A stretch of DNA of 36,258 nucleotides, taken from positions 1 to 36,258 of IMG/VR virus record IMGVR_UViG_3300005664_000018. One strand, 5' to 3'. This stretch comes from a virus. The notes beneath the pieces are model-generated. The model made no database searches. It was not told the origin of the DNA and saw nothing but the letters and a program-made list of their open reading frames with translations. A program made the translations under genes and the position numbers. Below are positions 17,088 to 36,258 of the stretch, piece by piece. Position 1 is the first letter of the stretch. The number at the start of each line of letters is the position of its first letter.

Positions 17088-17819
17088 TTACAATAATATT
17101 TTGTTACTCTTTCTCAAATTATCTTCCGCCCATAATGGTTGAAGATTAGTGTAATGACATAACTTATAAAGTTCGTCTTCAGTTTTTGCTGATGATAGTG
17201 GAATGATGTGGTCAATATGCCACTCACTCCTGTTGTCCCAACTCATACCATCAGTAAATTGGGTTTCTAAATGTTCTTTTAAAAATTGGGGGGTACAACC
17301 GACGATTTCAAAAGTTTTGTTTGTCTTGGTAATGTTTCGGGTTTTAAGAAACGATAAAAGTCTAGACCTCATTACACATTTTAATCTAAAAATAACATCA
17401 TTTTTTAATCTTGAAGAATGATAAAGATTTCTTTTTACTTTAACTTTCTCCTTATTTTTTTCTGACCATTCTTTTTTATAAGTTAAAATATTTTCTTTAT
17501 TCTTCTCATAATATATTTTATACCTATTTGGGTCTTTTTGGTATCTTTTTTTTGACCTATCCTTATCTTTTATCCTAATAATATCAATATTTTCTTCTCG
17601 ATAATTTTTAACTTTTAATAAAATTTTTTCCCGGTTATCAACATATTCTTTTCTTTTTTGGTCTTTTATTTTTTTATCGTTATTATCCCTATATTTTTTC
17701 CAAACAAGATAAGAACATTGTTTACATTCAGTTCTAAACCCATCTTTAGAATCTTTTCTTTTTCTAAAATTAGACAAATCTTTTTCAAGATTACACTTAC
17801 CACAAACTTTAGTTTCCAT
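17088..17819 (-). CDS. HNH homing-type endonuclease with N-terminal zinc motif
   Basis: The 243-aa protein has an N-terminal CxxC...CxxC zinc-binding pair (CGKC and CKQC), a long Lys/Glu-rich helical linker (residues about 40-135), and a C-terminal HNH nuclease: WHIDHIIPLSSA, then NLQPLWAEDN and RKSNK. It cuts DNA and is typical of free-standing phage homing endonucleases. Its start overlaps the end of a 50-aa ribbon-helix-helix gene by 11 bases. Together these two separate uvsX from rnh and are not needed for the host operon's function, so they look like a mobile cassette. The very Lys-rich, A-rich linker coding differs from the neighbouring replication genes. Confidence 0.88.
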   Translation of the reverse strand: METKVCGKCNLEKDLSNFRKRKDSKDGFRTECKQCSYLVWKKYRDNNDKKIKDQKRKEYVDNREKILLKVKNYREENIDIIRIKDKDRSKKRYQKDPNRYKIYYEKNKENILTYKKEWSEKNKEKVKVKRNLYHSSRLKNDVIFRLKCVMRSRLLSFLKTRNITKTNKTFEIVGCTPQFLKEHLETQFTDGMSWDNRSEWHIDHIIPLSSAKTEDELYKLCHYTNLQPLWAEDNLRKSNKILL

Positions 17820-33023: not shown

Positions 33024-33044
33024 AAATAGATAAATCATCTATTT
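33024..33044 (-). promoter_or_regulatory. Perfect 8-bp inverted repeat before the 1652-aa gene
   Basis: On the minus strand AAATAGAT and ATCTATTT pair around a GATTT loop between the tape measure stop codon and the ATG of the 1652-aa gene. CTATTTAT is then followed by a 17-base A-rich leader. The arrangement closely parallels the one at 7417-7436. It could be a processing site, weak terminator or part of a promoter. All pairs but two are A-T, so fold strength is low. Confidence 0.35.
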
Positions 33045-34819
33045 TAAGAGTATTGTAAAACACCCGGATTTCTTAATTGTTGTTTATTAGGGTTTGTTGT
33101 TGTTAAACCACCATTAGTAAACGCATCTTTAACCGCAACACCTAAAGCTTGTGAAACACCTGTATCATTAAACATTGCAATCACTTGTTCAGTATTAACA
33201 TTACTAGGTGCGGTTATATTAATATTTAATGTATGTGTTAAATCTACTTTAGAATTAGTTGAGGTAGATGTTGGTGTCGATGTATTGTTTGACCCAGTAA
33301 GTTTAGATAAAACGTCACTACCTTTTGTAAAAGCAGCAAATGTGTCTTGTGGTAATAATTGAATTTCTTGACCCGGCATTTTTAAAACGTCTTCACCTTC
33401 TCTACGGGTTACACCAAGCATCTTATCAAGCACGTTTTGAATACCATTACTTAATATTGGCATTTTTTCACTTAATTTTTGCATAGCCTCAGCAAAATTA
33501 TCCGTAGCTGAAAAAAGGGATTTTGTTTTTTCCTCCATAAATTCACTTAGCGGCATATTTCCTGCCGCAGCTTTATCAAGGTCTTTTCCAAATTGATTTG
33601 CAGTTAACGGTGGTTTAGCCTCTTTTAATGAATCATTAATCGCCGGCATAACATTTTTTGCCAACGTCAATAATTCGTCACCGGTGTATGATTTAGCTAA
33701 AGTCTTTGCCGGAGTTGAAACAAGTTTTGCAATACCTCCCGCCATCGCTTGTTGAGCGGATAATTGTTGTTTAGCCAAATCTTCCATAGTTGGTGGACCT
33801 TTTTCGGCAGCTTCTTTAAGTTTTGCAAAATCTTCAGGTGAAAGTTGGTCAACATCTTTAGTTTCATCACCAATAGTAACTACATATTTTCCACCCTTCA
33901 TTTCCGCCATATTGGCAATAAGATTTCTATCTTTTTCGTCAGCAAATTCCTTAGGGAAACTTATTTCTTTCAGTTTTTTATCTAAATCAGCACCAGCTAA
34001 CGCCATTTTTTCTAACTCACCATTACTGAAACCCATTTCCTGACCAATTTCTCTAAGTTGACGTTTTGCTCCTGGCATAATTTCAAAACCAGTACCGTCC
34101 TCTTTTAGCTTAACAAACTGTTTACTCATTTGAGCAATTTGATTTTGTAATTCAGCAGGGTCATTTTGGGATAAATCCAATAATTTTAAAGGGTCTAATA
34201 AATCTCCTTGAGTAACCCCTAATCTTTGTAATGAGGCTGCCATTTTGATAGCCCCTTCAGGGTCAAAAACTTTATTAGCAAAATCTAAAGTTGATTTCAT
34301 ATCAATTCTTAACATAGCCGCTTGAGCCGCCATTTTTGCCAAACCAGATACTCCTCCTTCAAAATTAAATTGATTAAGAGCTTTCATATTATCTATAACT
34401 TTAGCCGATACCGCCTGAGCGTTAACACCTGATTCTCGGGCTATATCAACTACTTTTTTCATTTCAGACGCAGTATTATATGCCGATATACCCACATCAG
34501 CCATACTACTAACCATTTTACCAACTTCTATATTGGTAACTTTATATGTGGCATATAAATCCTTAGACCCATCAACACTTAAAGTAACCGCTCTACCTAA
34601 ATTAGTTGCAACAGCTACTTGTAACTCCTCAACTTCTTTAAGGGTACCACCCATTTCTTGTATAGCGTCCAATGATAAAGCCATTGCGGCTCTCATCGAT
34701 TGAGCCATTTTATCGGTCATACCGAATAGACCCAACATTTTAGAACTTGAGTCGTCTATATCAAGTATTAATTTTGCTTGTGCTGCTGTTAATTTTTTTA
34801 AGTCGTCAAGTGTCCCCAT
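33044..34819 (-). CDS. Candidate tail tape measure protein
   Basis: With the ATG at 34819 the protein is 591 aa, almost the length of T4 tape measure gp29 (590 aa). It is helical, Ala/Lys/Met/Leu-rich and poor in aromatic residues, unlike its beta-rich neighbours, with long amphipathic stretches such as LTAAQAKLILDIDDSSSKML, MKKVVDIARESGVNAQAV and LAKQQLSAQQAMAGGIAKL. The C-terminal 90 residues carry a Ser/Thr/Asn linker and then beta-type sequence. The upstream TTG at 34849 is rejected because it lies inside a hairpin and its added residues look non-coding; TATAAACA (34835-34828) precedes the ATG. The position after the gp26/gp51 pair matches tail-assembly-chaperone then tape-measure order. 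Annotation as tape measure is from composition and context, not from a named motif. Confidence 0.65.
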   Translation of the reverse strand: MGTLDDLKKLTAAQAKLILDIDDSSSKMLGLFGMTDKMAQSMRAAMALSLDAIQEMGGTLKEVEELQVAVATNLGRAVTLSVDGSKDLYATYKVTNIEVGKMVSSMADVGISAYNTASEMKKVVDIARESGVNAQAVSAKVIDNMKALNQFNFEGGVSGLAKMAAQAAMLRIDMKSTLDFANKVFDPEGAIKMAASLQRLGVTQGDLLDPLKLLDLSQNDPAELQNQIAQMSKQFVKLKEDGTGFEIMPGAKRQLREIGQEMGFSNGELEKMALAGADLDKKLKEISFPKEFADEKDRNLIANMAEMKGGKYVVTIGDETKDVDQLSPEDFAKLKEAAEKGPPTMEDLAKQQLSAQQAMAGGIAKLVSTPAKTLAKSYTGDELLTLAKNVMPAINDSLKEAKPPLTANQFGKDLDKAAAGNMPLSEFMEEKTKSLFSATDNFAEAMQKLSEKMPILSNGIQNVLDKMLGVTRREGEDVLKMPGQEIQLLPQDTFAAFTKGSDVLSKLTGSNNTSTPTSTSTNSKVDLTHTLNINITAPSNVNTEQVIAMFNDTGVSQALGVAVKDAFTNGGLTTTNPNKQQLRNPGVLQYS

Positions 34820-34839
34820 ATTAAATGTGTTTATAAATA

Positions 34840-34881
34840 AATACACCAAAGAGTAGTTTTAAATTACGTCTTTGGTGTATT
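34840..34881 (-). terminator. Long hairpin spanning the end of the gp51-like frame
   Basis: A perfect 13-bp inverted repeat, AATACACCAAAGA (34881-34869 on the minus strand) and TCTTTGGTGTATT (34852-34840), encloses a 16-base loop that holds the gp51-like stop codon. It is followed on the minus strand by TATTTATAAAC. It could be an attenuating terminator between the chaperone-like genes and the tape measure, or an mRNA stability element. The stem is real; the role is inferred. Confidence 0.6.
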
Positions 34882-35037
34882 ATCTTCGATTATCCGGTCT
34901 ACAAGATATTTTCTTACATAAGTCGGCATTATATAAAAATCTGAATATGAAAGTCTAATAAAACGAGCTAAAAAATAATACTCCTCAATTAGACCTTGTC
35001 TATGATTAGAAGAAAGGGCGAAAAAAGTCCACCCCAA
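34864..35037 (-). CDS. gp51: Small gp51-like frame overlapping the gp26-like gene (possible frameshift product)
   Basis: A 57-codon frame lies in the +1 frame relative to the gp26-like gene and overlaps its last 32 bases. It includes the segments GLIEEYYFLARFIRLSYSDF and MPTYVRKYLVDRII; the EExFxLxxxxxxSYxDxxxMPxxxRRxxxxR pattern is what I recall for short gp51-like hub-assembly proteins of T4-type phages. In T4, gene 51 follows 26 directly. There is no ATG start: an in-frame stop lies at 35041-35043, and the only candidate is the TTG at 35037. The alternative is a frameshift from gp26 at the TTTTTTC run (35026-35020), giving a fused protein. Either way the coding pattern is convincing; the start is open. 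Confidence 0.6.
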   Translation of the reverse strand: MGWTFFALSSNHRQGLIEEYYFLARFIRLSYSDFYIMPTYVRKYLVDRIIEDNTPKT

Positions 35038-35761
35038 AGGTTATCTCGAAAGATACCAGTTCTCCTGAAGGGGCGATTACTTGTCTACTTAAATCTAATG
35101 ATGGTTCATTATCTCTTAAAAATTTTCTTATATATTTTGAGTCACTAATTGGTAATGTCTCAACATAAGCGGCGATTTTACCTTTATCAGTATCCCCATC
35201 AAATTCAACAATATGTTGATTTAATTTCCAAGTTACCCTTGGTGCTTGTATTCCCGCTGGATATTGATTAACCATTCTATCTAATTCAATAGTATCGTTG
35301 AATGTTGTTAATTTTAATTTAACCGTTTTACCACATTTAGGTAATGTTGTAGTAAATAAACCATTTTCATCCGGTTTTACATTAGTTTTTTTAATATTTA
35401 ACTCATCTAACAAAATTGAACCTATAAAAGGTTTGTCGGTTTTAGGGTCAATTAAATTTACTTTATATTCAGGTCCGAATGATGTATTTCTTAGGAATAT
35501 TAAAATAGCTTCAACATCACCATTTAATAATTCCTCAGGTCTTAAATCGTGTTCATATATTTTATTTCTTAATAATGATAAAATAATATTTTCACCGCTA
35601 ATTCCTGAACCAATTAAATAATTCTCATCGTTAGCCGTTAAATAACCAACTTTAACTGATTTCTTTTTTGATTGATAAAATATACCACCGGTAGGTAATT
35701 GAACAACATCGTGAGGTAAGTTAAAACCTTGTGTTGCGGCATCCATAATGTTTTGTTCCAT
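35006..35761 (-). CDS. gp26: Baseplate hub assembly protein, T4 gp26-like (T4_baseplate family)
   Basis: From the ATG at 35761 the protein has 251 aa (T4 gp26 has 208). It starts with FNLPHDVVQLPTGGIFY, then VKVGYLTANDENYLIGSG and LNGDVEAILIFLRNTSFGPE, the layout of the T4_baseplate (gp26) family and also similar to tail assembly chaperones. The C-terminal half has VKLKLTTFND and YIRKFLRDNEPSLDLSRQ. Longer versions starting at a GTG at 35824 are rejected because they run through a hairpin. The gene's last codons overlap a gp51-like frame in +1. It is the first gene of the tail module in the window, after an endonuclease gene and its terminator, so it needs its own promoter; TTATTATAAAAAAC before the ATG is a weak candidate. 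Confidence 0.75.
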   Translation of the reverse strand: MEQNIMDAATQGFNLPHDVVQLPTGGIFYQSKKKSVKVGYLTANDENYLIGSGISGENIILSLLRNKIYEHDLRPEELLNGDVEAILIFLRNTSFGPEYKVNLIDPKTDKPFIGSILLDELNIKKTNVKPDENGLFTTTLPKCGKTVKLKLTTFNDTIELDRMVNQYPAGIQAPRVTWKLNQHIVEFDGDTDKGKIAAYVETLPISDSKYIRKFLRDNEPSLDLSRQVIAPSGELVSFEITFGVDFFRPFF

Positions 35762-35810: not shown

Positions 35811-35838
35811 ACAAATAACCCCACATTTATGTGAGGTT
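35811..35838 (-). terminator. Hairpin after the endonuclease gene
   Basis: In the minus-strand RNA a 10-bp stem, AACCUCACAU with AUGUGGGGUU, has an AA loop and overlaps the stop codon of the endonuclease. It is followed by ATTTGTTTATAT. The one mismatch on the + strand (C35821/A35834) is a G-U pair in the minus RNA, which supports function in that direction. The U-tract is imperfect. Confidence 0.55.
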
Positions 35839-36258
35839 AAATTATGGATAATTTTTCTTTCAAATCTGAAATAACCCATTCGGGTCTTTCATTTATATCT
35901 TTTTCCCAATAACGAAGTAATGTTATGTTAAATTTAGAACATAAGTTATTTTTAAAATTATCATTTTTTTTTGTTAGTATTTGGGTTTCATAAATAACAT
36001 CTTTGTGTTTAGAATTTGGATTACAGTGGTAAAAATCCCCATCAACTTCAATTAAAATATTATATTTTTCCAAATAAAAATCAAATAATTTACCTTTAAA
36101 ATTATATTGACAGGTATTATTTATATTTAATAAATTTAAAATAATTTCAAATTTTATTTCTAATTTAGATTTTTTATTACTCAATTTAGTTTTTAACCAA
36201 CCTATTCTCCTATTTGAAGCATCTTCACGTAATTTAGGATTATCTTTATATCTTTTCT
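35837..36258 (-). CDS. 3' part of a PD-(D/E)XK homing-type endonuclease (5' end beyond the window)
   Basis: The frame is open to the right edge without a start; the visible 140 residues begin KRYKDNPKLREDASNRRIGW. The start at TTG 36184 is not the true start because the same frame continues upstream. The core has FDFYLEKYNILIEVDGDFYH, the DxxL...EVDG pattern of Vsr/DUF559-type PD-(D/E)XK nucleases, then KKNDNFKNNL and ITLLRYWEKDI, as in free-standing phage homing endonucleases. An upstream domain, probably DNA-binding, should lie outside the window. It sits directly before the gp26-like gene and has its own hairpin, so it looks like a mobile insertion into the tail operon. Lys/Asn/Phe-rich coding differs from its neighbours. 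Confidence 0.8.
   Translation of the reverse strand, partial: KRYKDNPKLREDASNRRIGWLKTKLSNKKSKLEIKFEIILNLLNINNTCQYNFKGKLFDFYLEKYNILIEVDGDFYHCNPNSKHKDVIYETQILTKKNDNFKNNLCSKFNITLLRYWEKDINERPEWVISDLKEKLSII

Follow-up and report, generated by a model that had tools for sequence, protein, structure and literature searches.

A conserved UUU_CGN site and an upstream RNA hairpin point to +1 frameshifting for the long tail assembly chaperone of T4-type phages

Results

Overlapping gp26-like and gp51-like frames lie upstream of a presumed tape-measure gene

The window, by which we mean the whole 36,258-base virus record analysed here, comes from a T4-type phage and has a G+C content of 30.5%. On its minus strand, a gp26-like ORF runs from an ATG at 35761 to a TAA at 35008–35006 and encodes 251 aa; its product matched the PF12322 profile (T4_baseplate) at 25.1 bits (cut-off, 24.5) and the baseplate hub family phrog_150 (E 2.7e-9). 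The gene ends with GAC TTT TTT CGC CCT TTC TTC TAA. A gp51-like tail frame, +1 relative to gp26, overlaps this end: it is open from 35040 to 34864, is closed upstream by a TAA at 35043–35041, and spans 57 codons when counted from a TTG at 35037–35035. This TTG is the sole start-like codon nearby, and no ATG lies upstream of the conserved part of the tail. A preliminary description of this DNA had given the coordinates, the +1 frame, the overlap, the upstream stop and the lack of an ATG, all of which were correct on re-reading of the minus strand. The two frames sit directly upstream of a gene (33044–34819) that is presumed, mainly from its position, to encode the tape-measure protein; in Flavobacterium phage immuto, the gene at the equivalent place is annotated as tape measure, and the product of the window gene is only marginally similar to that protein. 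The features are as follows (all on the minus strand; RNA positions are counted from the slip codon as 0).

35006–35761, minus: gp26-like gene, 0 frame, predicted short form of the tail assembly chaperone (PF12322 and phrog_150)
34864–35019, minus: gp51-like tail in the +1 frame, 51 codons past the slip, stop at 34866–34864 (conserved peptide, profile chain)
34867–35761, minus: predicted trans-frame fusion gp26-gp51, 298 aa, junction ...GVDFF/ALSSN... (translated with CGCC as one step)
35070–35075, minus: 5' arm CGCCCC of the RNA hairpin (−52 to −47; CCCC in 90/90)
35061–35069, minus: invariant asymmetric bulge NUCNGGAGA (alignment columns 90/90; Gly codon GGA in 118/118)
35039–35057, minus: inner hairpin GGTATCTTTCGAGATAACC, variable in the clade (folds in most relatives, in two registers; covariation)
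35035–35037, minus: TTG, sole start-like codon of the tail frame in this region (88/90 in the window clade, 29/139 in the second clade)
35030–35035, minus: 3' arm GGGGTG (−12 to −7; GGGG in 90/90, position −8 paired in 90/90)
35024–35026, minus: E-site codon TTT, Phe (TTC in loci L168 and L170–L171)
35021–35023, minus: slip codon TTT (P site), followed by a C that would permit re-pairing of tRNA-Phe on TTC (TTT in 118/118 and 139/139)
35018–35020, minus: CGC in the A site, a rare codon for Arg that is presumably decoded slowly (CGN in 117/118)
33044–34819, minus: presumed tape-measure gene, next gene downstream, ATG at 34819 (position and immuto annotation)

The junction codons and the frame of the tail are conserved in the window clade

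The clade of the window comprises 197 environmental IMG/VR loci with 118 distinct coding sequences at about 52–99% aa identity; counts over these relatives are not counts of independent samples. The tail is in the +1 frame in every locus that could be read, and it carries the peptide [AGDV]LSS..R..IEEY....MPTYVRKYL or close variants. The arrangement is thus confirmed as real and as more than chance because it recurs in 197 loci, and the same relatives rule out a sequencing error or a pseudogene. The predicted fusion, with CGCC read as one step, was aligned with 28 relatives.

In the 118 distinct genes, the codons at the junction are F247 TTT (118/118), R248 CGN (117/118), P249 CCT (118/118) and F250 TTC (118/118). 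Elsewhere in these genes, TTT makes up 72% of Phe codons and AGA 72% of Arg codons. The A-site Arg codon is CGG in 56 genes, CGC in 42, CGA in 14 and CGT in 5, such that CGC and CGG account for 98 of the 117 CGN codons. These two are also the rarest Arg codons in the 18 main ORFs of the window, at 0.27 (CGC) and 0.36 (CGG) per 1000 codons; CGC amounts to 0.9% of Arg codons there, which bears out the earlier remark that CGC is unusual in this DNA. The overlapping +1 protein could account for part of the conservation of CGG/CGC and CCT-TTC.

Coding constraint switches frame at the site. Upstream of the slip codon, the +1 residues vary (W, L, R, S, Q or P at codon −3; S, T, N or I at codon −2), while the 0 frame keeps V/A, E/D, F and F; downstream, the +1 frame reads x-L-S-S and the 0 frame soon ends. 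A T6 or T7 run is present in most relatives. In L168 and L170–L171, the site reads TTC TTT CGN, which breaks the T run and leaves the +1 move from UUU to UUC intact. The T run stressed in the preliminary description is therefore not essential. The A site holds a sense CGN codon, and the 0-frame stop follows several codons later at a variable position. We rejected this stop as part of the signal since its position moves by a few codons (L108, L109, L119 and L123).

A covarying RNA hairpin precedes the proposed slip codon

The preliminary description overlooked an RNA hairpin whose 3' arm, GGGGY, ends 6–7 nt 5' of the slip codon. The stem pairs RCCCC (−51 to −47) with GGGGY (−12 to −8), and its distance to the slip codon is fixed over the whole window clade. 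Silent sites are fixed at A230 (GCC, 112/112), G233 (GGA, 118/118) and G243, which is GGG in 118/118 although GGG supplies only 17% of Gly codons. The covariation score of the stem in 90 distinct sequences was 0.200, compared with 0.100 ± 0.006 for shuffles and ≤0.077 for slid versions. The −51/−8 pair is kept in 90/90 (G-U 75, G-C 10, A-U 5), and the −52/−7 pair alternates between C-G (43) and A-U (22). Measured against synonymous shuffles, the folding energy had a mean z of −2.0 at the hairpin, 0.2 and 1.3 in segments lying a few codons further 5', and between −0.7 and 0 in the rest of the gene. No Rfam family matched the hairpin at E ≤ 1.

The bulge NUCNGGAGA is the same in 90/90, even though its Gly codon would allow variation. 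Inspection by eye raised a pseudoknot of GGAGA with UUCUUC, an idea we abandoned since six loci (L108, L110, L116, L184, L203 and L205) have lost UUCUUC but retain GGAGA.

A second clade places the tail in +1, in many cases with no start codon

Two further scans yielded a second clade of 156 loci with 139 distinct sites. The slip codon is TTT in 139/139, followed by TGG (99) or TAC/TAT (37) and then by CCT (130). Searches with the tail HMM (hmmsearch) placed the homologous tail in +1 in 148 of the 156 loci; of the other eight, seven are LR756511-like and lack the site, and one is L349. At 57 of the 139 sites, no ATG, GTG or TTG occurs between the nearest tail-frame stop and the conserved tail, and only at 3–5 codons upstream of the slip are tail-frame stops frequent (codon −5 has 24 and codon −3 has 21). 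Independent initiation therefore cannot make the tail at those sites. Five loci (L406, L412, L445, L447 and L370) read TTC TTT TGG/TAC and keep the tail frame. The sequences of the second clade differ from those of the window clade, and pairing at −10 to −7 is raised in them as well (0.68–0.76 vs 0.52–0.60 in synonymous shuffles).

The tail is likewise in +1 in the isolated Flavobacterium phage immuto (AGC TTT CTT TGG), Microcystis phage Mel-JY01 (AAC TTT TTT TGG), Streptococcus phage GXN1 (TTC TTT CGT), Bacillus phage SP-15 (TTT TTT CAC) and jumbo phage LR756508 (TTT CTA), all of which fit UUU_Y. The distant Listeria phage LIS04 (TTT AGT) has no UUU_Y and counts against the +1 frameshift reading. 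A scan of genome contigs added one remote Deltaproteobacterial locus, and scans with L131 gp26 and SP-15 gp26 alone matched only themselves.

Two further departures in this material also count against the +1 reading. L349 is the sole second-clade locus with TTC TTC (then TGG) in place of TTT TTT, and its tail is read in −1; this locus may be a true exception in nature or the result of misassembly. In the LR756511-like loci (L086, L379–L382, L389, L390 and L414), gp26 carries a basic tail extension and lacks TTT TTT, and the homologous tail lies in the other frame; in L086, an ATG overlaps the stop (TAATGG).

Cyanophages carry the tail in −1 and T4 has two genes

In the cyanophage-like loci L219–L298, gp26 ends NNT TTT TTC NNN stop in 79/79. 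The base before TTT TTC is always T (79/79), so that a U_UUU_UUC heptamer falls at the same two Phe codons in all 79, with the gp51 frame in −1. KVP40, Atu_ph07 and PA5oct likewise have U_UUU_UUC with the tail in −1, and RAS14 has U_UUU_UUU with the tail in −1. A −1 heptamer of the X_XXY_YYZ kind with a −1 tail thus occurs in 79/79 cyanophage loci and not in the window or its clade. The comparison with synonymous shuffles gave no raised pairing at −10 to −7 in the −1 cyanophages.

T4 genes 26 and 51 lie on opposite strands (L218:3306-3929, minus; L218:3980-4726, plus). Both products match PF12322 (E 8.8e-64 and 3.9e-52, respectively) along ~200 residues, and gp51 consists of a gp26-like domain plus an extra C-terminal segment, to which the short gp51 of cyanophages is related (E 3.5e-4). 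The preliminary description had held that separate gp51 genes in relatives would speak against frameshifting. T4 does have such a gene, but it is the long form as a gene of its own; since T4 gp51 joins a gp26-like domain to the same kind of tail, it fits the chaperone reading and is not a refutation of it. It is as though the two products of a frameshift had come to be encoded separately in T4.

Profile comparisons linked the tails in a chain, from the window clade to the second clade (E 7e-13, 97.8%), from there to cyanophage gp51 (E 3e-6, 87.8%), and from cyanophage gp51 to the C-terminus of T4 gp51 (E 3.5e-4). A direct comparison of the window-clade and cyanophage tail profiles was not significant. 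On this profile evidence, the window tail is homologous to the gp51 C-terminus through intermediate profiles only.

The fusion structure was modelled with AF2 from the relative L054, which stands in for the window protein. The model (pLDDT 82.5) has a folded three-helix tail and resembles gp26-like proteins (SP-15 gp26, TM 0.82); its neighbours among viral predicted structures are mainly other gp26-like or unnamed phage proteins. No significant fold neighbour of this model was found in the PDB, so the chaperone fold is not confirmed from solved structures.

Discussion

The site, frame, tail and hairpin described above are conserved. From this conservation, we infer slippage at the site, an efficiency for it, a contribution of the hairpin and a chaperone role for the products. 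Specifically, it is highly likely that +1 programmed frameshifting makes the long T4-type tail assembly chaperone, and the conserved upstream hairpin probably promotes the slip. The gp26 and gp51-like frames would then specify short and long chaperone forms that act on the tape-measure protein. A majority of ribosomes would terminate at the gp26 stop, and a minority would pause when the P site contains tRNA-Phe on UUU and the A site the rare CGC. While CGC waits, tRNA-Phe probably slips +1, from UUU to UUC in the window clade and to UUC or UUU when both clades are considered. The hairpin would re-form once the ribosome has passed over it, with a 3' arm that stops 7 nt short of the slip codon, and would probably favour the forward slip and block backward slips in place of a Shine-Dalgarno (SD) helix. 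Such a slip, joining gp26 to the gp51-like tail, had been put forward in the preliminary description and gains support from the 197 close loci and the second clade; comparative data also favour its suggestion that this device operates in a T4-type setting before the tape-measure gene.

In influenza PA-X, +1 slipping at UUU_CGU has been proven and is abolished when the site is changed to UUC_AGA; predicted sites related to PA-X show a preference for CGN as the A-site codon (PMC3498833). With 70S ribosomes, a stable hairpin upstream of the shift site stimulates +1 slipping to ~60% of the effect of an internal SD (Huang, Cho & Chang 2018, PMC6321510). Nearly all of the 18 main ORFs of the window lack a purine-rich leader. 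Since the genes of the window lack SD leaders, a hairpin within the mRNA may take the place of the SD helix; this lack, together with the Flavobacterium relative, suggests a host in the Bacteroidota. In Bacteroidota, the anti-SD is occluded, yet prfB still uses a perfect SD (PMC8710568).

The main competitor to frameshifting is that the tail is a separate small protein, begun at the overlapping TTG (35037–35035) and translationally coupled to gp26. This TTG occurs at −14 in 88 of 90 window-clade sequences with no stop between it and the slip site; its frequency there is largely a by-product of the conserved TTT GGG. Val244 is never encoded by GTA (0/107 vs about 24–30% expected), as a TTG start predicts, because GTA would put a TAG into the +1 frame after the TTG; this avoidance may instead follow from the stem, in which −7 covaries with −52. 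Existing annotations also agree with separate initiation: the short gp51 ORFs of cyanophages and KVP40 are annotated as separate genes, and the Mel-JY01 tail as an ORF that opens at such a TTG. However, the second clade has the TTG in only 29/139 sites and no start codon in 57/139, ATG (17/18) and GTG (1/18) open the main ORFs of the window with none beginning with TTG, and the codon sits on the margin of the strongest RNA stem in the region. L183 and L185 lack this TTG and have another 6 nt later. A TTG start also leaves the invariant TTT-C, the rare CGN and the fixed hairpin unexplained. The plain TTG start named in the preliminary description is therefore unavailable to many second-clade sites and, in the window's own clade, where the TTG is nearly constant, is weakened, not dead; overall, we consider it improbable. 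A Mu-type slip of −2 on the T run would give a product with one extra Phe, and the T6 or T7 run of most relatives would allow it. The variants with TTC TTT (L168, L170–L171, L406, L412, L445, L447, L370 and GXN1) cannot re-pair at −2, yet they keep the tail frame, and this second mechanism of the preliminary description is thereby disfavoured to the point of being very unlikely. Slippage of RNA polymerase, to which the T run at the junction might also point, is less credible still: the run is only 6–7 T, falling to 3–4 T in the TTC TTT variants, and neither the CGN codon nor the conservation of the upstream hairpin would be explained.

Whether the hairpin belongs to the frameshift signal is a separate question. 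The hairpin and the invariant GGAGA might serve mRNA processing, contact with a protein or rRNA, or regulation of the downstream gene; the 3' arm lies 7 nt from the slip codon, as against 2–3 nt in prfB, and the GGAGA bulge has no assigned role. Against this, the distance to the slip codon is fixed over the whole clade, pairing at −10 to −7 is raised in the second +1 clade and not in the −1 cyanophages, and stimulation of +1 slipping by an upstream hairpin has been published (PMC6321510). We regard a function apart from frameshifting as a serious possibility, albeit the less probable one, and favour a hairpin that promotes the slip.

The proposed +1 site combines traits of several known systems. 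In lambda, the short and long chaperones G and GT are made from overlapping frames before the tape-measure gene by −1 frameshifting. The window shares the overlapping frames in this position, but its direction is +1. As in systems of the lambda kind, a conserved slippery site marks the junction (TTT in 118/118 and 139/139); a second frame without a start of its own is found at 57 of the 139 second-clade sites, while 88 of 90 window-clade sequences have the TTG. The likeness to T4 gp26/gp51 rests on the PF12322 match of the gp26 part and on the profile chain of the tail, with the difference that the T4 short and long forms come from two separate genes. Influenza A PA-X (UCC_UUU_CGU, PMC3498833) has the same P-site UUU_C, A-site CGN and proposed tRNA-Phe move; its E-site codon is UCC, compared with UUU (rarely UUC) here, and the window phage adds a bacterial ribosome and a conserved upstream hairpin. 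The prfB signal (AGGGGG UAU CUU UGA C; in F. johnsoniae AGGAGG UAU CUU UGA C, PMC8710568) likewise combines a +1 P-site slip with a slow A site and has a helix to the rear of the ribosome. However, its A site holds a stop rather than a sense codon, and its helix is formed with the SD, not within the mRNA, and lies about 3 nt upstream rather than 7 nt; the SD of prfB is thus closer to the P site than the 3' arm of the hairpin is, a point against the proposed reading. In the constructs of Huang, Cho and Chang (PMC6321510), a 5' hairpin is similarly proposed to push the 70S ribosome forward, but these were designed on CUUUGA, whereas the window hairpin is natural and conserved. The chaperones of Vandenendeviridae and Andersonviridae (PMC12846349) offer another parallel, with a missed C-terminal domain annotated as a small ORF and a T-rich frameshift site; those are −1 sites with GTTTTT in other phage families.

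Part of this picture is already in the literature. Vladimirov, Gautam & Davidson (2022, Virology 566:9–15), as cited in PMC10885494 and PMC12846349, identified gp26/gp51 as T4-type tail assembly chaperones. According to PMC10885494, which cites that study, some T4-like phages have short and long chaperone copies instead of frameshifting, and PMC12846349 refers to it with regard to poly-T signals for −1 frameshifting in such phages. The signals cited there are −1, whereas the window tail is in +1. We found no description of a +1 chaperone version with a hairpin in the searchable literature. The +1 version with the hairpin thus appears to be undescribed, the chaperone identity being known and the −1 version probably known.

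We tentatively extend these findings to a broader proposal, in which our confidence falls just short of even: that this is a natural +1 signal in which a hairpin, located where an SD helix would be found behind the ribosome, replaces SD–16S pairing, suited to hosts that do not use the SD, and that within a single chaperone family the same two Phe codons have been adapted to +1 (UUU_Y with a hairpin) or to −1 (U_UUU_UUC without one), or have given way to two full-length genes, as in T4. Sullivan et al. (2010, PMC3037559) reported that the gp51 proteins of cyanophages and marine vibriophages are without their first ~200 residues. If the loci are read as proposed, the missing N-terminal residues of these marine T4-like proteins are gp26, supplied by −1 frameshifting in cyanophages and by +1 frameshifting in the window phage. 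This reading would add a conserved PA-X-type +1 site (UUU_CGN) in phages and, in the covarying upstream hairpin, a natural test case for structures that push the ribosome forward, a role shown with designed constructs (PMC6321510). If it is true, the annotation of many phage genomes would shift from two proteins to a short form and a fused form.

Other features of the window

A homing-endonuclease-like ORF (35837–36256, minus; phrog_559, E 1.7e-13) lies directly upstream of gp26, and an ORF at 17088–17819 (minus) that is HNH-like by eye lies among replication genes. The intergenic sequence GTGTATTTATTTATAAACAC (34829–34844, minus) precedes the presumed tape-measure gene and occurs at the same place in many relatives. 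Its opposite strand, TATAAATA, resembles the T4 late promoter motif and is present in one copy in the window.
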